Assembly: GCA_009869945.1 (NCBI GenBank)
Contig: WIXG01000029.1
Location: 124,001 to 188,000 of the forward strand
Source: Mesaphorura yosii
Taxonomy: Eukaryota; Arthropoda; Collembola; Poduromorpha; Tullbergiidae
Direction: 5' to 3'
Length of the DNA stretch: 64,000 nucleotides
Shown: positions 1,035 to 61,200 of the stretch, one piece after another
Position numbering within the stretch: the stretch's first letter is position 1
How the letters are laid out: each line of letters opens with the position of its first letter
Program-made: the position numbers and the translations under genes
Notes under the pieces: model-generated
Databases searched by the model: none
Told to the model about the DNA's origin: nothing
The model's input: the letters and a program-made list of their open reading frames with translations, nothing else

Positions 1035-3813
1035 ATGATGGAAAACAACGGCCGCCACATCGTTCGTGTGTACGTTGGAGCTCTTTCCAACGATTACGAA
1101 GCGCTGTCCATCGAAGCCAGCAAGCACACGACGGCTTCGGAAATCATTCAGTGCATTATTCAGAGATTAGGCTTTACGAACGCAAGTAATTATGAGCTTG
1201 CCGAAGTGATTGGAAACTCCATTGGCCAGGAATGCAAAGAGAGAAGACTTGGGCCGTTCGAGTCGCCGGTTGCAGTCAAGCTGCTATGGCCGAAGGATTT
1301 CGGTGCAGACGCACTACTGACGAACGGCTCTACAGAGCTTGGAAACCATGCTTCTAGTGACTCTGCCTTTCCATCCAGCAACAGAAATGCTCAAAACACA
1401 TCCGTCTCATCTTCCACCAACGGGTTGGAAAAGTCGGGCAGCAGCAACAGTTGTGCTAACGCTGTTGCTGGAAGCGGAGACGAGTACCGATTCTGTCTTC
1501 GGGAAAAGGTTCACTCAGACTCGCTGTGGTCAGAAAACGTAACGATGGATCCACAAGTTATTAGAGACTATTTTTACCGGTTTCTTTATCAGCCGAAAGA
1601 TAAAGAATACCCTGATTTGTGCCAGTTGGCTGAACTGAACGAAGAAACTCTGCTGGAAAATCTGAAGTCACGATTTAATGGGGGGCACATTTACACTTAC
1701 GTGGGATCAATACTCATCGCTGTAAGTCTGCGCCAATTAATGGCCTTTTTTTTGCTTACCATTTGCATGCATATATATGACGGCAAAGATTTCATCTCCT
1801 CTCTTTTCGCATTTCAGGTGAATCCGTTCAAATTTCATCCAATTTACAACCCAAAATATGTTAAACTTTACCAAAATCGGCGGCGTGAGGAATTGCCTCC
1901 TCATATTTTTGCCATTGCTGATTCGGCATACCATACCATGCTGAAGGAACGGCGAAATCAATGCATTGTGATTAGTGGTGAGAGTGGTAAGTTTATTTTT
2001 TGCGAATCTTTGAAACACATCAATGTTGACAATTAGTTTTGAGATTAAAGAAACTTTTAATACATTGAATGAGGTACTGATCAGCCTAAATGTTGATGAC
2101 TAACCAAACGGTTTCCAGATTAACCTGTTTTGGATTTCTTCGACAGTGGCTCGATGTCTTCGTCAGTGCTGTGGCATTTTTCGTAGAAGGAGCGTTTTTC
2201 AGTGTTATGATCTTCCTTGGAATTGATCTTGGTGCAAATAAGGATAGTTTGGCTTCAGCTATCTTTATCGCATCATGTCTTTGCTTTGGTGACAGAAGCT
2301 GCAGAATGTTTTGGTTTTCATTTCTTTTGCTCTTTAGTAGGAATAATTACATATTCGCGATAACCGCCACTTGCCTGCAAGAAAACAAGAAACACTGCAT
2401 CTTAATATTACAATATTGTAATGAATTTATTCACTTACAATCCAGAAGGCTTCCGCAGCTTCTGCTTCTTCTTTCGAATCGAATCCTTCTCTGTGTATAA
2501 CAAATCCGACTTTACCGGAGTCCAATTCATTAGCAATGATCGTACTGTTTCTTGCCATATGATCAGCTAAAATGTCATGTTTTATTGCTACAGTTGTCCT
2601 CTTTCCGACGTAATATTCGAATTGACATCCTTACACATGTTGTCACGAACATACTTCAGCAGTCCATCAAGTGTAGTGCCAGCAGGCGCGAACATGACAA
2701 AGTAGAGGAGCCATTTCGTCTTTTTAAGATAAATACGGTAGGCCGCATCTGCGGGTTCATAAAACAACTTCTCCATTTCAGAAACTTGGCCAGCTGATGC
2801 TTCAGACCTTTGAGAATCCGGTTTGATCTTGGGAACTGTATTCCTTTTCAAGTTTTTCATCAATAACGGACGTACCATTACTTGCCTGTGTAAACAAAAT
2901 CATCCTTAGTTGCAATAGTAAACGCCTGAAGACCTGAACTCTATTTTTTTTTACTCAATTGTAACTTACGATTTGCACTGTTTTTGGCAAATGAGAGCAT
3001 GGCCGACTCCGTAGCGAAAGTTCTGTTGCAGTATGAGCACTTGTAGTTTTCTTCTTCCCCTTTAGCTTTTGCAACTGCTTCAGCATTCATCCGCTTATGG
3101 AACGACTTCGCAGCTATTTTGTTGTAATGCTCCACGCTTTTCTGCTTGGACTGTTCAATGGACTTATTCTTAGATTTACGGAGTTTGGAAAGGCATGATG
3201 TAGAATGGGACATAATGGTACTTCTTGCCACGCGTTTCGGAAGAGCTGTGGTTACTGGCACAGTGAAATTACAATCTTCCTTCAGACACTTGAAGTTACC
3301 AGACAAAGTTTCTTTGTAGTGTACATCTGTTTTGGGGTACTTGTGACACAAGAAGAAAAATTTTATTATCAAAATTATTAGTTTTCATTAATTTAACAAC
3401 TATGAACCACTTACTTCATCGTACGGATCCATTTTGTTGGCACTACTTACTTTAATTACGAAATTATCTGGCTAAAACACTGATTAGTTGGCAATTTCTC
3501 GCTGCTTACTGTAGTTGTGTTGCTGAACACCGATGACTGGGAAGTGAAGGTAAAAAAATAGAATTTGCGAGACTGGAGACTGCGACCACGCTTGACGTTC
3601 AACGACGTCTAGTACATAATTTTTTAAATATTATTTCGACTGGACTTAAACAACTCAATTGCAGGAGTTAATATTTATGGCTTTACTATTTCAGGCAGTG
3701 GAAAGACGGAGAGTACAAACTTTTTACTTCATCATCTGACTGCGCTGAGTCAGAAAGGGACGCATGGAAGTGGCGTGGAACAAACCATCCTGAGTGCTGG
3801 ACCCGTTCTTGAG
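1035..3813 (+). other. MYO9: Myosin IX exons 1-3: RA domain, start of motor, P-loop
   Basis: Exons 1035-1721, 1818-1986 and 3695-3813. Exon 1 encodes the Ras-association-like ubiquitin fold that marks class IX myosins ([11 protein letters not shown] to VKLLWPK), a Ser/Asn-rich spacer, and the start of the head ([18 protein letters not shown]). Exon 2 continues VNPFKF and stops within the P-loop (GES G|), which exon 3 completes as SGKTEST after the 1.7-kb intron 2. Exon 3 ends [13 protein letters not shown]. Intron 1 (1722-1817, 96 bp) is a multiple of three and has no in-frame stop, so reading through it keeps the frame open; comparison with the family shows ILIA joined directly to VNPFKF, so it is an intron. 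Confidence 0.93.
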
Positions 3814-42856: not shown

Positions 42857-43730
42857 ATGCAGAAAGCCGTTTTCATACTGGTGAGTTCTCCACTCTTCAT
42901 ACTTGTGAGAAAATCTGGACTTTCCAGGCTGAGTACACATCTCGTACTAGTTTGTTTGTGGGATTCTAATTTGTATGGACTTATTTTGCTTCCAGGTCTG
43001 CGGTCTCCTCGCCAGGGCTCAAGGCGAGCCGCCCGTCGTCGAAGCCACGTATGGCCCACCGGCAGCAGAGTATGGCGCGCCCGTCGTGGCCGCAGCGCCT
43101 GTTGCAGAAGTTGCCCCAGTTTACGGTCCACCCGCCGCTGAGTATGGGGCTCCCGTCGTTGCAGCAGCTCCAGTTTATGGGCCTCCAGTCGTAGAGGCAG
43201 CACCAGTATCAGTTGGCTACTCCGCTGGTTACGGATCTGGAGGTGGTGGATGGGGAGCCCCCGCACCCGTCATTGTGGAGTACGGCAAGACCACGTACTC
43301 GCACGGTCCTACCCGGGTCAAGCAGTACAACTACCACTCGTACAAGACAATTCCGACCCACACAGTCAAGCACTTCCAGCATCACTCAACCCAGCAGAAG
43401 AAGATCATACATCAGCACAACCAGCACGAGAAGGTTATTCACCAGCACAATCACCACCAGCACGTTCTGAAGGAGCACCACGTTCACAAGGTGCATCTCC
43501 ACAACCTGCATTTGCTGAAACATAACGTTCACCAGCACAATATCCACAAGCTTCATGTTCATCAACCAATCTACCACCAGAACGAGAAGCACGTCAAGAA
43601 GGTGACTGAGGAACACAAGACTCGCACAAGCGTTGGCGAAACATCGGAGCACAGGCACCAGTTCCACGAGTCGAAGACACACGCTGCTCCAATCTACAAG
43701 GTCCAGAGAGGCTGGGGATGGAGCCGCTGA
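42857..43730 (+). CDS. Secreted histidine-rich, cuticle-type structural protein
   Basis: Two exons, 42857-42880 and 42996-43730, encode 252 residues. Exon 1 holds only MQKAVFIL; the signal peptide (to about residue 17, MQKAVFILVCGLLARAQG) is split by the 115-bp intron, typical of arthropod cuticle genes. The mature protein has an Ala/Pro/Val/Tyr-rich part with two copies of YGPPAAEYGAPVVAAAP and shorter variants, a glycine-rich hinge (GYGSGGGGWG), and a strongly His-rich half with repeated HQHN and HxH motifs from 43380 to 43580. It lacks the Rebers-Riddiford chitin-binding consensus. A structural role in cuticle or another extracellular matrix is likely; His clusters could bind metal or react with quinones in cross-linking. 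The exact family is not recognised. Confidence 0.85.
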
Positions 43731-44397: not shown

Positions 44398-47300
44398 TCA
44401 TCCATTGACTGAGTGCTCAGAGATAGTACTCTCTTCTGTAGTTTCTTCCATTTCTGTTGTTTCCTGCTCTTCTGGTTGTGTGCTTTGTGATGAAAGCTGT
44501 CCCTGTTCCTCGTCTGCTGAATGTGCGTCTTGCGCAGCAGGGCTCTCCTGCTTGTTATCCGGTGGCAGCTGATTTTCTTCCGCGGTTGAGTACTCATTTG
44601 ACAGGAATTGGAGCTGAGGAAGGGTAGCCAAATGCTCCGGAGCTTCTTGTTTTACACGTTCAAGAATCGAATTGTATATTTCTTGTCGTCTTGTCCCCAA
44701 TACTGAGATGGGGAACCAATCTACCATGTCGTGAAGAGGTAGCGCAAATGAATAAATAGGATTTTTGAAAAATGCTTCTGCATATTGCAAAAGAAATATC
44801 CCACAATCACTAGAATTTGGTTGGAGTGGTACCATCGGCTGATACCCTGGAAAGGTATGCACGTCAAAGACTCGTTGTGCGCCTTTCTTTTCCTGTCAAA
44901 ATAGTCAGAATTATAAAAATTGAGAACACGTAGCCTGGCCTAGAAAGCCTACTGACAAATACCTGATATTCCATGTACAGGTAGTCTCGTAAATTCTTGT
45001 AAAGGATTCGGTGATTATCACCATTTACTGAGTCAAATATTAATATGCAAGGTTGTTTCATTCGAGGCCTATCGAGGTCCTCCAAGTCTGTATACTTTCG
45101 AAACTCCCCCTTGTCTGCAAAAAAGTCGGCTCTTTTAGATACGAGAATTTTACTCGTAGTATATACCTCATAACTGAAACCTACCTGCCCTAGCACTAGG
45201 TACGGTGGCTGGAAGTTTCCCTTGGCTTCCGGGAAATGCCAAGCGAATATTACGCCACTCTAATTTCTCTAAGCCATCATAGGTATGGGGTCCTTCCAGA
45301 CCAGGAAAACAAATTATCGCCAAATACCAATGTGCTCTAAAGTAAAGCAAATAACAATTACTAATGGGTCGTGAATTTTGTGGATAAGAAACTAGACAAC
45401 TTACTCCTCATTCACCGGCACAACTATAAAGTCTTTGCTAAACAAGTCAAACTTCTTGGTCCATTTCTTCACTCGTTGATGCTTTCTTTGTATCAACGGA
45501 ATCGAGGGATCCGTCTCAAAGCTGTAGGACTTTTTCTTTGAAGCCGTAGATAGTCTTTTGTAAAAGAAGGCCGAAAATATTTGTGTTTTACTTTTCAGCG
45601 GCTCGCTCAATCGAGAGTGGATCTCCATAAGCCAGTAATCGATAATTTGGTCGTTGAGGTACTGCCCCTCACCCAATGACAAGACATCAACGTTTGATAA
45701 TTCAAAAGTATGCCGCATTAAAAACCTAAATATTTTTCGAGCATGAAATCAAACAATAAAGTCATTCAAGCATCGCTGCCATTACAATGAAATGACTTTA
45801 TACTTACTTTTTCAATTCACCAGTGTATGCAGAAGTCGGAGTTTCACGGCATGCTAATTCGAGAACTTCTCCGGACTTCGAGAATTTTGGGGGCCGTGTT
45901 GGTGTGGAACCGTTCTCGTCCAAAAATGAAACGGGATTTGAGTCGTCTTTGCGTCTTTTAGCACCTTGTAAGTTACTTTTTGTCGATGCCTCTTCTAAGA
46001 GTTTAGAGTTAGCACTCTCTTCGCTTATTTCTTCAAGCAAGGGTAAACTCCGTTTTATAGCGTTTCCGTGAAAAAGTGAAAAGTCTTCACCATTTAACTT
46101 CAACATCACAAATAATTCCGGTTCATCTGCAAGTATTGTAAATAATTAATAAATACGAATCCCTCTTTCATGCACGAATTTTAAATTCATGATTAGCTAG
46201 TAGGTGGGATGCAACTCCTGTTGCAACTCCACGACAAAGTTCGCTGCTTACAGCAAGGTCTCGTGAGTGAGCATTCGATATGGTAAATTAAGCAATCGAT
46301 CTCCAACGAAAGATCATAGTCTGCTTAAAGGTTTCTTACCGCCAGTGCAAAACTCGGCGTCAGTCATTCCAAGATTTTCACGCAACCAATTGGCATGCTT
46401 GCCATCAACAGTGATGAACAAAATTGGGAATTTTTTTGATAAATGCCCTTGCATTTTTCGGACGTGATTCAAGACAATGACACAGTCCTTGATTACCTCT
46501 ATCAAGAGAACGACAATAAATTCCTTTTTCTTGCCACTGAGCAGGAGTTTGTAGTAAAAATTGATTTGCTCTTACCATTATTTTCAAAATGTGGTAATCC
46601 AAACAAAATTCCTTCCGTAGACACAGTGGCCATCAGTTTTCTTCCGTTTTCTTTTCCATTTTCAGGCAAAACTTCATAGGGTCCAACTCGTATGGAATCG
46701 CAAAGTATTGTTGCGAATTGGGTATGGGGAAGAGTATTGGATATGATCTGCTTAATTTTTTTAATTGCTGCAACAAACAAAATGGATAGTCATAAAGAAA
46801 TCCCATGACTCATGCACGCTTCAAAGTTTAAAAAAAACTTACAATCCTCTGGCGAAAACTCAACGTCTTGCTGTCCTTTGTCCATCCTAGTTTGATTCAA
46901 ATTCGACATCGGTGCTGGATAGGTAAGGGCTGTACTACCGTATTTTAAATTAGGGGCAGTTTCGAAACCCAAATTGCTCAGAGATGTGCTTGAGGATAAG
47001 TCACTTGTTTCGCTATCACTAGGTGTTTGACGTGTTTCTATTCCTCCGATTTGAAAAGTAGTGGAAGGTCTTTCGATTATTTCTAGGTCTTCACCAGAAA
47101 TGTCCACATACATAGGAGTTCTCGGTCCTCGACTCTAAAGAAGCATGAAGATGTTAGTTTACCGAGGTACAGTTCGAGGCTGGAGCCCACCAACTCGACT
47201 ACTTGACAAGATTTCTAATTCTTACCTTTGGTTTGTTATTTGAAGTCCTATTAACAGACACACGAGATGCTGGAGACACGGCGGGGTTTGCTCTTACTGC

Positions 47301-52600: not shown

Positions 52601-55245
52601 CCTTGGCTGCGCGTGGTGTTGATGCACTTGACCGATGGTTCCTGATTGATAAAATCAGCTCCAATGACATAGAACTCCTATTTGGCGAATTATTTCCGAT
52701 TTTGAAATCCTACTTTACAGCAGTCGGTGAGTTACGTATCTATGTTATGAATTCAATTTATTATAAAGCCACAAATTACCTTTCGAAATTTCAAATGCTT
52801 GCCATTTATCTCCTGATGCTCGCTTGCAGGCCAAGAAGAACTGCTAACGGACATAATCAAAATGCAGACCCCGAAAAGTAAGGTTAGCAGGGCAAGCAGT
52901 TTTAAAAAAGCGAAAGGTCATTTGCATCAGCGAAGAATTCAGCAAATGGCACAAGAAAAAGAAGACGTGTCCCTTCGAGATTTGCAATATTCAATATTGA
53001 AACTGTTCGGTTCATACGCACACCTCCTGAATCTTAATTCAATATGTGCTACGGACGCGCAGGTCCAGATGAATGTGGAGGAACGATTTCTCAAATATGA
53101 GATTCCATTCCAGGATATCAAGCCAGACCTATACTTAGGTACGCACCGAAAGCGCTGCAATGAGTAATAACACGTGCTATTGATATGCGTCTTCTGAATT
53201 TCCAGAAATTTTAGTGCCACGAATAAGTGACCTTTGTAAACTGGCGAGTGACAGGCAACTTCGTGCCTCTGCTTGCGAATGCTTGCATTCCATCATTCTG
53301 TACTTCCTTGGACATTGTAAGAACTAAAATACAATACATTATTTAGACATTTCAAGTTGAGTCCTCTTTATTTGTAATTTGCTTACAGCTGTGCGTTCAT
53401 CTAGTTCCGTGGGCCAAGGCGAGCTTTTCGTCAATATATTCAGCACAATGATGAAATTGTCTTGCGACAATGACACTGTTGTTCGCCAGTTGTTCAATCC
53501 ATTGACGATTCAAGTGGTTCATTGGTTCACAAGAAATGATGCCCAAAATTATGGAGACATTGTCCTGCAGTTGATTGCGGTATGCAAATTCTTTGCTGTA
53601 GCTCATTTCTAAATTTTGATCGATTAATCTCAAATGCAGGATTGCTTAGTGCAAACTGAGGACACGCACCTTCGCGATTTTTCGGCTGTGTGTATGTCGG
53701 AATTCTTCACTTGGTGCATGAAGCACAGCAATGGTTCAAAAGTGAGTGTAACTACCTTGAAATTTAAGATCTCAAATTGTTCATCTGTTCCAGTATTTTT
53801 ATGCTTTTCATGACCGATTAGGTTAAGCAAATAATGAAGACCCTATGTGGTATGGGCACACACTCAGCACCAAAATACAGGCAGGGTAAGATTTCTCGAA
53901 TAGTTTCATTTTCCGGTGTCATAAGTTCTGAGATCTCTTTTTACTTCAGGTTCGGTTCTTGCTTTCAATAGCATTTATCGAGAGTTTCGTGAGAACGAAG
54001 AATTAGTTAGCACGTACACTTTGCAACTCGTCTATTCCTTCATCGTTAGCTTGGGACTGCCGTACAGCGTATCCGGAGAAAGTATTTTAATAAAGTCGAC
54101 AGAACTCGCCATTCGCCACTTGGAAAGAATTTTACTAAAAAAGAAAGACAAATTCAATACAGTAAGTGCTAATTCGACTAAGATATCACTCAACGAGTTT
54201 TACTTCTATTTCTTAACTGTAGGACATTAGAGGAAGAAAATACCCCGCAGAGCTCAAAGGGCCGTGCTTAAAAGATTTAGTGAATTGGCTGCTTCGTCAG
54301 TGTGGCGAATCTTCCACCGCAATTGGTCGACAAGTTTGTATAGGCTTAGTTCATACGCTGGCACCAAAAATTCGGGGTATGTTGCACTTCTTCATTCTAG
54401 CATACGCCGCAATGGCTGAAGCAATCGTTGCATTTGCAGGCGTTAGAACAACGGAGGAGTTTTTATTTGGATTTGAGAAAGAAAATGACATACAAGGAAT
54501 ACTGAAGATTTGTGAAAGTTACCCTGAGCCTCCGGAAGGAAACACAATTGATTCTTGCAACCAGTTTGAACGTATGCTGAAGTTGCTGGATGCGTCTGTG
54601 GGCATCTATTTGGGACTTCTGGCTGCGGGCTATCCTATTGCCAAGTTGCTGGGTCTTGCTGAATCCAAATTCATCAAGAAAGTGGTGCTGTTTCTAGAAT
54701 TCGATACAACATTCTTCCGAGCCAATTCAACAGCATTTGCGTTCTTGGAAAAACTTGGGCAGCTGATGAACTCCGCCAATCAGTGTTTCAACCTGCAGTT
54801 CAAGCAATCGTATGTTAAACTGGGCTTGACGGTATCAAAAATGACGCCTGTAAATCATGAAATACTATTGACCACTTTGGATAAAGTCTGGCTCGGGATA
54901 TCAGAAGCAGTTAGCACGGACTTCACTTCAGAAATAAAGCAGCTAATGCAATTAAATCCAGCTGTAGCAGAGCCCACTCTGCAAGTTAATACGTCACAAA
55001 TTGAAGAGCTGATTATCAGCACAAATTGGTACCATGAGTTAATACGACATCATGGACTTATCAGTGTTATACCAGTCGAGGATATAAGAGCAGTAGCAGG
55101 TCAAATATGGAGTCACATATTGACGAGCCTATTCTACCAAAAAACTGGAAGAGATGGAGAAATGTGGGTCTCAAAACCTGTTAACTTCAAGCAGAGAGAA
55201 TTACTTCAGTCTCTTGCCAAATTATGCTTTGGTCTTGGACGGCAG
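49633..55245 (+). other. PRKDC: DNA-PKcs exons 1-16: N-terminal HEAT-repeat arm
   Basis: Exons 49633-49750, 49821-50020, 50098-50403, 50480-50959, 51053-51234, 51316-51907, 51969-52211, 52308-52493, 52570-52726, 52830-53138, 53206-53316, 53389-53579, 53640-53741, 53822-53885, 53950-54161 and 54223-55245. The product is alpha-helical, Leu-rich, without catalytic motifs, fitting the arm that contacts Ku and DNA. Exon 6 to 7 is ambiguous: either a GC-AG intron (donor gcaagt at 51908, acceptor ending 51968) or a GT-AG intron 51912-51984; both keep the frame. Exon 16 is by far the longest (1023 bp). Confidence 0.82.
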
Positions 55246-58200
55246 GTAAAGACAAAATGCTAATGATTATATGCGAAAGAAACTAATGTGATGTTGAATG
55301 CTTCTTCCAAAGGAAGGTGTAATTTCTGCCATATTCGATTCGACTCCCGTGTATATGGACACGATGGCAAAGACAAAGTTAACAAAGGGAGATGTTTTTC
55401 AACAAGTTCTGCTGCCCACATTTTGCTTCAGCGAACAGCTCGTCAACTTTCAATACCTTCTAACACAGACGAAGTTAGAAAATGTCGCTAGTCTCGTCCA
55501 GTCCATTCTTGCATTCATAAAGGACAACAAAGAACTTCGGAAGAGGTTATTTGTACTATGCAGCCAAACTGAATTTACCAACCTATTGCTCAAGTAAAAC
55601 ACTTCAATTTCAGGCATGGGAAACAGCTGGTCTCTTCAACTCTTGGTGTCTGGCAGCAGCTTCACCTGAACAGCGAGCCGAGCGTGCTGAGCCGAATCAT
55701 GTCTGGGTTGAGCTCTTTGGACTTTGACTTTTCTAAGAATTCCATGCAGCTGGCGACTTGGTGGAGCGGTCCCATGTTGATGGCAAACCCAAATTTAACT
55801 CTGAAGGAAAAGTCTGAGTTTATTCACTTCTTTGGATTGTTTGGACGTTCGTCAGACCCGGATGTCGTAAATACTTGCATGTATGTCCTGCATACTTCCC
55901 ACTAACATGAGGGAATGCTCACTAATTTTTTACTGAACTTGCAGCAAAGGGATGGAAGTTTTGGTGAAGCAAAGTTTGCATCCGTTGAATCACATTGATT
56001 GGACTCAAGAAGAGCAATACATTTCGAAAGTATTTTACAAAATGTTCTTCGTGTACGAATCCATGCCAGAAAACATGCGGTTGCTAGAAATCATTGTCAG
56101 ATACGTAATCAAGTCAACAATTCTGTGCGAGTCACTGCATGAAAGAAACTTGGAGAAAGGACTGGAACAGACAGAATCATCCACAAATGAACCCGAAAAC
56201 TTATGCGCAAGCGAAATTCGAAGTAGGCTCAGAAAGCTGATAACTGAGAATCATAAGGTCAATGAAGATATAAGGTTGCAGATCGTCGAAACGATTTTCA
56301 AGACAATTACTGATCCACAAAATTCAGAATACAGAATGAACCTTTCCGGAAATACATTCTGCTTAATTCCTGCGATTGGGGCCACGACAGACGCTGCTTT
56401 GAAGAAATTCTTCCGTCAAAAGATCTTGGCAATTATCGGTCTTGCTGTGCGTAGAAATATTTCATTGGGCTGCTACTCTATGCTATGCCAATGATCAATA
56501 TTTTTTATATAACAGGAAACCCCGGTGAAAGGCCTTGCATCCAAATCAGTCTGGAATCTAAAAACAATTGGAATGACCCTTGTTGAAATGTTGGCTTTAA
56601 GAACTCATTCCTCGTTTATTATTGGCAACGACCTGAACCAATGCTATGTGAAGCAGTTGAGTCCTGCTCAACTCCTCGAAGTTCAAAGTTCTAAGATCCC
56701 TGCCTCTGAAGACACTAAAATACTGTTTAGAAAGCTGATGAAAATTTCTCAAGGCTACCGCAACGTCCAAACTCCAGCACAACGGGACCAGCATGTCAGA
56801 GCTGCACATTTTAACTTCAATACAGCTTCATTTAACACAACAGTTGCACTTGCGACGGTTGCAAGTCTTAATGTCAAACAAATAACCGGGTTTGTTTTTG
56901 TCGACAACCACAAACGCGGAGATTTTATTTGGCCGAACATAGTTGACACAAAGATAGCGTACACCTATCCAATTGTGATGGATCCGGCCCTCAGTGAAAG
57001 GAAAATTGTTGAAGAAAAAACTGCTCGGAGCACTCCTCGTACGACTGAAATATCTTTTGAGCATAATCACCGGTTAGACAATTCCTTGTTTTTTGACAAC
57101 CAGTAATGTTTGCATCTTAGTTCGATGCAAACTATATTTTGAACTTGCTTTTACAGGGGCGTTGTGTCGGAAAGTAGCTTGGCGAATGATGCAAGCAGAT
57201 TCGACTTTACAACTTCAATTAAGGTAGCTACAAGTCCTTTCTATCAGAAAATTTTTGCTGGAATCAATCCTTACGACACCTCGAGACCTCGAGCGACGCC
57301 TCTGGCACCAGAAGGGACACTTGAATGGAGTCAAGTGAATGAGCACCCTTGCATGTTCTCGTTAATTCAAGCAATGAAGCAAATTACGTCTGCTTCCGTA
57401 AGAAGATATATCTACTAGGTTTAGTTTATTAAATGAGGATGAAACAATCTTGCAATACTTCTTCGTAGGCTGATGGAGGTGGCGCAGTCAATGCAATGGG
57501 AGTGGGAGTGGAATGGGTGAAAGTCTTAAAGTCTTTATTAGATAATCCAACCGTTCATGCAAACATAAAAGCTCTGATAATTGGTGCCATCATGAACTGC
57601 GACGAAGTATTCAAACCGTATGCTCTCCATTTTGTTGAACCGATCATCAAGTGCATACTTTCAGAAGCATTTCCCACATCAATGACAGCGACTACTTCCC
57701 AAGGATTGAACTACTTTGTTAAGGATATTGTAAGTTGGAGGAAAAACAGTACAAAAATGTTCCGCTAAGGCCCGGATACTTTTCTAGATCATTATGCTGC
57801 TTGGTTGGTCGGAAATTGTCAAGCTCGAGAAGAGTCAAGTGAAATCATTTCTGGAGTACTTTATCATTCGAATTGACAATCCGAGGAAAGATGTCCTTGA
57901 AAACAATTTACTATTGTTACAGTAAGCTTAAGTTCTGTGTCAATTATATGGACCATCGTGCTATCTCATGCATCCTAACTTCGTACAGGGCAATTTTAAC
58001 TCACTGGGTTAAAAATGAGATTCAAGACGGAATGCCTTATGATGAACGTCTGGTTCCCCATCATCTGATTGCTCAGGCACTGGAAAGAAGTGATTCGATA
58101 GCACTTGGATTGAATTTGACGAAGTATTTCTGCCTGAGCGGTATCCTGCCATGTGAATTGGACAATGTCGCAAAATTTGTTGACCTCATCTCCAATTCAT

Positions 58201-61200
58201 TCCGAAGCAGTATTAAGGCGATAAATTCTCTGGGTGGAGAAGCGGCGGGTCTTCTACTTAAGTAATCTTTAAATACGGTACACGACATAAGGAAGGTTTT
58301 CTAACAACAATTACATTGCTCTCAATTTCAGGGTGTTGGATTCGATGAATTACGCACACATTGATAAGGCTTTGAAACGAATGAAAGAAAAGAAACTGGA
58401 TCGAGAAAGAGGCCGCACGCAATCTTACCTTACCATTTTAAGCAACATCGGAAAGCATTATCTTCCATTCTTGATTCTATTTAAAAATGATGCCATGAGC
58501 TTCCTGAAAAATGCTGCAGTTCGAGATGAAGTCCTAAACATTCTTGTTGACATATTGCAAGAAGAGATTCGCAAAGAATCGAGTCAGGACAAGAAAGACC
58601 AACTCATGCTAAATCTTCACCGTGACTTAGAAGGAAGAGGAATATTTAATATGGAACTTAAGTGAGTAAACCTAATTTAGCCTAGTGCAGGTGCTTATGA
58701 GGCCCTTTGACTAACTCCGTGTGGTAATTTCAGAACTAATCTCAAACCTGGTGTCGAATACTTGTATATTGCCTCCACCACAAACTTAACGCTGAAGAGT
58801 TCCAAAGTGTTGCAGCTTCTGGGCTGGACTCAACAAGCGGAATTTGGCGACAGTGTGATCCGAGCCAGATATGCTACTGCTGTTTCTCGAATTTACTCTA
58901 AACGGGGGTAAGATGAACGATTAATTGCATTTGGCACTGTGTGAGTTGAGCCGCTGAACGTGATAATTTGGGTTTTCAGAGGGCATTCGAGTGATGACCC
59001 GATTTCTAGCAAATGCGAAAAATTATTAATTAGCTTGCTATTTGATGAAGATTTGGAAGTACAAAATGTTGTTCAAGAATTTTGGTCGAACAACTTAAAA
59101 AGTTGGGCAACTTCGCCCTCTCTGCTCCTGGAATTGATGGAAATCCTTGGTGACAATCCAAACGCAGTAGCAGTATTATTGGAACTTATGACGAAGCGTT
59201 GTTCTAGTTCCCCGGACTTTGTAAAGAACGTATTTGATAAGGATCTCGCTGACTGTGTATTTCAAAATTACGACATCAATACATCATGGAGAGGCCAGCA
59301 ATCTGCTATGCATCCTCTATTTGCCGAGTCATTATCCTCTTCACAAAGCCTTATCAACATATTTCCGAAGGCAATACAAAGCTCGCTTTTGAGCCAGAGG
59401 GCTGGTACCCAGTTGGGAATGAATGTACTTCGTTCTACGCTGAGAAACCTGCAATTCACTCAAACACAGGATCGGCCATATGCTCATGGTACTACTTCGC
59501 TCGCGTTTGAATAGTAGCTTTATATGGACTATAAGTTAACATTATATTTGTTAATGACTGTATCTATTATTTTAGGGTTCTCGCAATCACAAGGTGGTAG
59601 CATGCCAATGGATGAATCATTTGACTTCGATTTGGAGCCTACTGCCCCCACAAATTTAAATTCACCTCTTGACCAATCAAAACCACAAAACCCGCTGAAT
59701 TCCCTCCGCCGTCGATTTTACGAAAGATCCGAAACTCCTTTCTATGCACTCCGAGAATCAAAACGACAGCAAATTATAATCGAGTCTGATGTTGAAACCC
59801 TGAGGAAAAGAAGGAGCGGAGTAAAGCTGTCGAGATCCTACAGAATTGGGGAACTACCTGACATCAAGATGAAAAATGCAGACTTCTTAGCCACCATTAT
59901 TGCTTTGGTGAAGAAAGATGAAGAAATTGGTAAAACTTTGCTAGTTGTACTGGGCTCGGCTTTTCTCGACCAATTGAAGAAGAGAGTTGGAGCCGAAGCA
60001 TTTACTTTTCAAAACAATGCAAGCCTAGTCATTGATAAACTCTTTACTGATCACGGAGCTGAACTGAGTTCACAGTTCGCAGCAGCACTCCTGGAGATGT
60101 CGGCTACTGCAGAATTTTCTATAAAGCCTAACTTAGTCTCGAGTGTTTCAGAATTCTTCGGATTGGAACAAATTGGAATTTTGAAGTTAGAGAACGAAAT
60201 TTCCAATGCAAAGAGCAGCGATAATTCCGCTCCTCCAAAACGGCCAAGACTTTCAAATGGAACAAATGACATTGAAATATGGCTTCGATTAGGCGATCTG
60301 TACAAACACCTGGAAGATTTCGACACTGTGAGAAACGTTTTTTCTCATATTCGAGACTTACACGGAGACAACCAAAATAAGCAAGATTATTTTGAGAAAG
60401 CAAGAGAAGCGCTTTACTTGGAGAGTTTGTCAAAGTATTTAGAAGCACAAGAACGTTACGAAGAACTGTATCAACTTACATGTACAAGCGAAGGAGATCC
60501 ACTATTGCAGCAGCAATTTGATGATGCTATCTACAAGGTTCGAACTGGATGACCTGGATCAAGAAGGTAAATGAAATGAGCTAATTTTATTTCATTTCTG
60601 AGTAGGTTCTGGCGAGCATGTCTGACTGGGATGGCCAGTACTCCAGAACTCATCAATTTTATGCCAGCCATCAAGAAGAACTCCGAAACGATAGGTTAGT
60701 ACCTCACTCATTCGCTCGGCTCCTACTTTTTGTGTCTTAACATTGCGTTAAATGTTTGTTTGCAGTTACAGGACCAGAATACTTCCAAAACAGATACTGG
60801 CAGGAGTTCAAACGTTTCTCCGACACCTGATAGTGCCGGATGAAGGAGAAGAAAATGTGGGTTTATTTTCCGAATTTCTCCGAAACCTTAAGGAGGATGA
60901 GGATGAATGGAAAGCTGTTGCAGTAAGAACTCCAATCACAGAATATTTTTACGAGCAATTTTGATTTATATGCATAGACTTTTCGGTATATTTCAGGCTA
61001 AATTTCCGATAGACCTATCCATTTTGCACTTAATTGAGGATGATGACAATAAAAGTCGTGCACTCCTCGATACTGCCTGGGCTCGAGCTTTGGTTTCTTT
61101 TCAATCGTTCGAAAGGCTTGCGAAAAATGAAAAGAGGGATTGTTTTCTTGAGTTACAAAAATCGTCAACACTTTCGGATGCGCTGTCTTGGCTAACCACA

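Follow-up and report, generated by a model that had tools for sequence, protein, structure and literature searches.

Does an intron of a myosin gene house a second, working gene on the opposite strand? The question is raised by a locus of Mesaphorura yosii in a window of 64,000 nucleotides (the whole stretch analysed; contig WIXG01000029.1, positions 124,001 to 188,000) from an assembly of 93,006,257 bases in 1,127 contigs. A sequence-only reading had proposed there a five-exon antisense gene for a 272-residue protein, with a tandem acceptor as a possible regulated splice switch.

The plus strand of the window contains a class IX myosin gene, which is the host of the antisense copy. Against the Pfam cut-offs, its RA (40.8 bits), motor (111.3 bits), IQ (26.9 bits) and RhoGAP (89 bits) domains passed, and its C1 domain scored 26.0 bits, just below the cut-off of 26.5. 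The gene has the domain set RA, motor, IQ, C1 and RhoGAP, which we take to be that of class IX myosins. The intron in question is the following:

1987 to 3694, plus strand: intron 2 of the class IX myosin host gene; it splits the P-loop GESGSGKT and has the copy antisense inside it

Removal of this intron, by joining position 1986 to 3695, restored GESGSGKT, and Pfam motor matches flank it on both sides (the 3' match, at 20.7 bits, is below the cut-off of 33.3). The placement of the chain inside an intron that splits the myosin P-loop was therefore correct.

Elsewhere in the window, we observed exons of a DNA-PKcs gene on the plus strand at 54223-60552 (Pfam DNAPKcs_CC5, E 1.3e-14; a DNAPKcs_CC1-2 match, E 3.3e-5, is below the cut-off) and an exon of a Ulp1-type (C48) protease on the minus strand at 44398-44895 (26 bits, cut-off 20.7). 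A plus-strand ORF of 259 codons at 42951-43730, rich in Pro/Val/Ala repeats (GPPAAEYGAPVV) and in His (HQHNHHQH), gave zero Pfam matches at E <= 0.01. The window gave no Rfam match at the gathering score and no tRNA.

The minus-strand chain itself exists as described. Exons 3432-3415, 3339-2970, 2880-2635, 2566-2439 and 2374-2318 join in phase into 272 codons and a stop, and the donors gtaagt, gtaagt, gtaagg and gtaagt are all present. Two tandem AGs, 5 nt apart, were found as well (exon starts 2885 and 2880), the second being an AAG five bases behind a CAG; use of the first leads to a short product of 131 codons that ends in ...ANRK, just after the half finger. The Cys/His clusters and degenerate fingers noted earlier do lie in an antisense, gene-derived sequence inside the myosin intron. 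At this site, 272 aa is the longest spliced ORF with GTAAG donors, and this length was reached by none of 200 dinucleotide shuffles (maximum 122) and by none of the 118 other equal-length stretches of the window (maximum 239), which rules out a chance origin. The chain is thus present beyond chance; what fails is its meaning as a gene.

As DNA, window 2300-3450 gave zero other matches in the genome at E <= 0.001. Translated searches of the same genome, however, gave 37 rows with the 272-residue protein as query (with one extra C) and 101 rows with a paralog, L019. We pooled the rows with E <= 1e-3 (21 of the 37 and 75 of the 101, the weaker 16 and 26 being dropped), and these cluster to at least about 43 genome places, including the nested copy. 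The paralog DNA was compared by eye and with a purpose-written spliced protein aligner, whose breaks may be noise for distant paralogs.

From the paralog alignments, the family gene has four exons, and L019 (C11:274287-275689, minus strand) is open over 395 codons. Exon 1 encodes MDPFDK or similar. Exon 2 has C...C...H-x3-C invariant in nine rows of its alignment (A2), followed by a second finger that reads C-x2-C-x12-C-x3-C in L017, L018, L019, L021 and L023. Exon 3 is one long exon, and a third Cys/His module closes the last exon. The family layout, as predicted from sequence, would be a conserved core, W.LYFV...YYVGKRT...HDIL.DH...AEAFWI, with three metal-binding-like modules around it. A possible distant member, L071 (C107:178000-183000; weak match, E 0.0033), has a 352-codon open frame in which the core and the last module follow each other uninterrupted by the usual intron.

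None of the family proteins scanned reached a Pfam cut-off, and the best zinc-finger match of the nested protein scored 17.2 bits against a cut-off of 27 (query with one extra C). At loose thresholds, in member tables without cut-offs, Pfam gave weak and scattered matches, including zinc fingers: OS-D in four of nine exon-2 members (best E 0.0016), CEP104_ZnF in two of the nine (best E 4.9e-4) and KTI12 in one of nine core members (E 0.0022). We rejected a known domain for the family on these grounds. The exon-2 profile matched zinc-finger chains among the Protein Data Bank sequences (best E 6.5e-7, Aart); the core profile (best E 0.19) and the other searches of these sequences (best E 0.033 and 0.2) gave nothing convincing. 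The C-terminal half of the protein, which had been left unassigned, can now be placed as a conserved block of a family of this genome, although its Pfam matches stay weak and scattered.

Many of the examined copies of this family (group G000) look damaged. When 16 other paralog loci were aligned to L019, none was full length without a stop or a frameshift; L018 and L020 have one stop each and zero frameshifts. The scatter over about 43 places and the damage in many copies would suit a transposable-element relic that carries the family, a reading that is compatible with a pseudogene. We regard it as unlikely, because four copies, the nested one included, have no consistent inverted repeats around them, the family proteins scanned have no transposase domain, and the copies keep their introns and, for the pairs compared, are no more than 38 to 50% alike. 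A viral origin was also considered and rejected: a viral scan with L019, which detects close relatives only, was empty. Tentatively, this uncharacterised family of Cys/His-rich proteins may have spread over these about 43 places and may turn over fast, perhaps by a mobile or conflict-driven route.

The comparison with the paralogs gave the following map of the nested copy:

2120 to 3432, minus strand: whole decayed family copy, from spliced alignments with L019 and L017 and the last-exon ORF 2254-2120
3415 to 3432, minus strand: exon 1 homologue, MDPYDE (MDPFDK in L019), from paralog comparison
3340 to 3348, minus strand: the 9 nt (CHK) that open the exon 2 homologue; the family acceptor directly before them is lost (CTTCTTG)
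2970 to 3348, minus strand: exon 2 homologue; module 1, C-x4-C...H-x3-C, is kept and the second finger is broken
2993 to 3000, minus strand: frameshift 1, about two bases more than in the paralogs (near 2997 in the alignments)
2886 to 2969, minus strand: intron 2 homologue in phase 2, like that of the paralogs; its last bases are the first AG (L017 alignment)
2881 to 2885, minus strand: GCAAG between the tandem AGs; its skipping offsets frameshift 1
2439 to 2885, minus strand: exon 3 homologue, one continuous exon in the paralogs
2629 to 2634, minus strand: frameshift 2, about four bases short of the paralogs (near 2629 in the alignments)
2567 to 2634, minus strand: intron 3 of the chain, family coding sequence in another frame
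2375 to 2438, minus strand: last intron, at the family position (L017 query)
2120 to 2374, minus strand: last exon homologue; its frame shifts near 2326 and again near 2253
2318 to 2320, minus strand: stop codon of the chain, inside the family's last exon

Homology to the four-exon family (L019 type) runs over the whole length of the copy and is weakest at 2346-2236. Intron positions and phases agree with those of the family at intron 2 and at the last intron (L017 query). The chain has four introns, of which the paralogs share one and lack another; the acceptors of the remaining two are displaced. The proposed five-exon coding gene finds no support in this comparison, since the paralogs have four exons and the chain's intron 3 is family coding sequence.

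At intron 1, the donor is kept and the acceptor lost: the acceptor used by the chain, CACAAG, falls 9 nt into exon 2 of the family, and in eight of the nine paralogs shown a YAG stands directly before xH (AAG in L023). The exon 2 homologue was recovered by the own-genome search with L019 at E 1.0e-13 over 3345-2944. Past frameshift 1, the family frame reads ICQKQCK, which contains Cys 3 and 4 of the second finger. The paralogs' acceptor of intron 2 corresponds to the first AG, and the chain needed the second because the 5-base skip offsets frameshift 1. We therefore rejected the regulated splice switch; its second AG compensates a frameshift in the second finger.

The stretch removed as intron 3 (YYVGKRT...HDIL.DH) is continuous coding sequence in eight of the 12 paralog loci printed (L017-L022, L026 and L031). 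Of the remaining four, L028 and L030 break the frame there, L029 has the second part only and L023 ends early. Against each of four paralogs, 0 of 2000 shuffles scored as well as the nested stretch, and the own-genome search matched the nested letters to the family over 2621-2436 (E 2.7e-11). Gain of intron 3 in the nested copy was rejected, as the stretch is coding in the paralogs.

Beyond the stop at 2318, the family's last exon continues in two other frames to about 2120. The ORF 2254-2120 keeps LIC....DHNTEKR..Y.K.H, and none of 2000 shuffles matched its score with any of four paralogs, in the case of L019 narrowly (score 50, best shuffle 49). The middle piece of this exon, 2346-2236, is weak: of 2000 shuffles, 0, 2, 335 and 1441 were as good against L020, L019, L017 and L018, respectively. 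The ligands of the last module are lost, the nested copy ending in ...KCHS where L017 has LICPLPNCEKDHN...KWHC, so that only module 1 of the three Cys/His modules keeps its ligands in frame.

With L017, the closest paralog and the best-scoring query, the spliced alignment used only the family introns 2969-2886 and 2438-2375 and revealed four frameshifts, at about 2997, 2629, 2326 and 2253, and no in-frame stop; no open frame runs through all the family exons. The L019 query gave frameshifts at 3000, 2629, 2256 and 2243 plus one stop, and used other, short introns. The four breaks found with L017 are all indels in one assembly, for which sequencing or assembly error is a possible source, and one could argue that an intact family gene had its frame broken by assembly errors alone. 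We consider this very improbable: the breaks are accompanied by the lost intron-1 acceptor and the lost last-module ligands, and the host gene and the neighbours of the nested copy have long open frames.

A working gene could also have evolved around the frameshifts, if a new 68-nt intron together with use of the second AG restored a 272-residue protein shorter than its relatives. The length of the chain bears on this point, and we ran the same GTAAG-donor thread search on 14 paralog loci. L018, L020 and L017 gave threads of 281, 243 and 204 aa, those of L018 and L017 just running to their single stop (codons 289 and 205); L019 gave 311, from a stretch that could not hold its whole length, and the ten other loci gave 38 to 167. 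With looser donors, the maximum for these ten was 232, as against 277 for the nested copy. The nested copy thus threads further than the other multiply broken copies, and the notion that any decayed copy threads as far is unsupported for copies with several breaks.

An open chain with GTAAG-type donors that is longer than in all the shuffles and window stretches, and that also exceeds the threads of the ten other damaged loci, speaks for a working gene. Such a gene, however, would lack YYVGKRT..HDIL, a stretch that holds three of the five columns invariant in alignment A1, and would have lost Cys 3 and 4 of the second finger and the last Cys/His module. Its second AG is not the paralogs' acceptor, and its full exon model is shared with none of the relatives compared. 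We give more weight to the family match within intron 3, to the missing intron-1 acceptor and to the breaks in the last exon than to the threading length, and we judge a working gene improbable. The 272-residue long form steps around two of the frameshifts, and the protein and its splice switch are most likely the result of stringing exons around breaks.

The divergence of the nested copy from L017 was 0.379, 0.390 and 0.633 at the first, second and third codon positions (256 codons, 41% amino-acid identity), and the trend against L018 and L019 was alike. Protein constraint thus acted on the copy over a large part of its past. Taken together, intron 2 of the class IX myosin gene very probably contains, on its opposite strand, a duplicated and unprocessed pseudogene. 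A copy of a multi-copy four-exon family gene, introns included, would have come to sit in the host intron, and a long coding history would have been followed by decay through four frameshifts, one lost splice acceptor and lost zinc ligands.

We infer that the nested copy would yield no working protein. Should it be transcribed, use of the first acceptor would give the product that ends at codon 131, and such a transcript would probably be degraded by nonsense-mediated decay. The sequence-only reading had also expected transcription of one gene to interfere with the other. For an antisense transcript of the relic that affects myosin IX by transcriptional interference, the locus offers its position and strand, and nested genes have been reported to interfere with each other in Drosophila (PMC8467205); we consider this effect extremely improbable here. 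The same paper states that the accumulation of intronic genes was at first attributed to large introns.

The case illustrates that a decayed duplicate may pass for a gene with several exons and a splice switch, and that comparison with paralogs of the same genome can resolve the matter.

Among known systems, C2H2-type zinc fingers resemble the distant members L028 and L058, which have C-x4-C-x12-H-x3-H, but differ from the second finger of the five copies listed above, with its C-x2-C-x12-C-x3-C, and from the nested copy, which has only the first pair in frame. The antisense position in a myosin intron, described earlier as unusual, is real. Intronic genes are not rare in animals. In passages of PMC3786989, about 6% of Drosophila melanogaster genes are given as intronic, and PMC2878309 describes tandem splice sites with a spacing of 2 to 12 nt as frequent. 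By themselves, the position and the paired AG are therefore unsurprising. The gene 2mit, described in PMC3786989, is oriented opposite to timeless2, one of whose introns contains it, like the nested copy in its host; 2mit, however, is a working gene, whereas the nested copy looks broken.

The closest likeness is to duplicated (unprocessed) pseudogenes, which, in the relevant passages of PMC1810550, are recognised by an exon-intron structure common with the parent. By that criterion, the retained introns argue against a processed copy. The present case differs in that it derives from an uncharacterised family; it agrees with such pseudogenes in that the homology spans the intron positions and the frame carries frameshifts.
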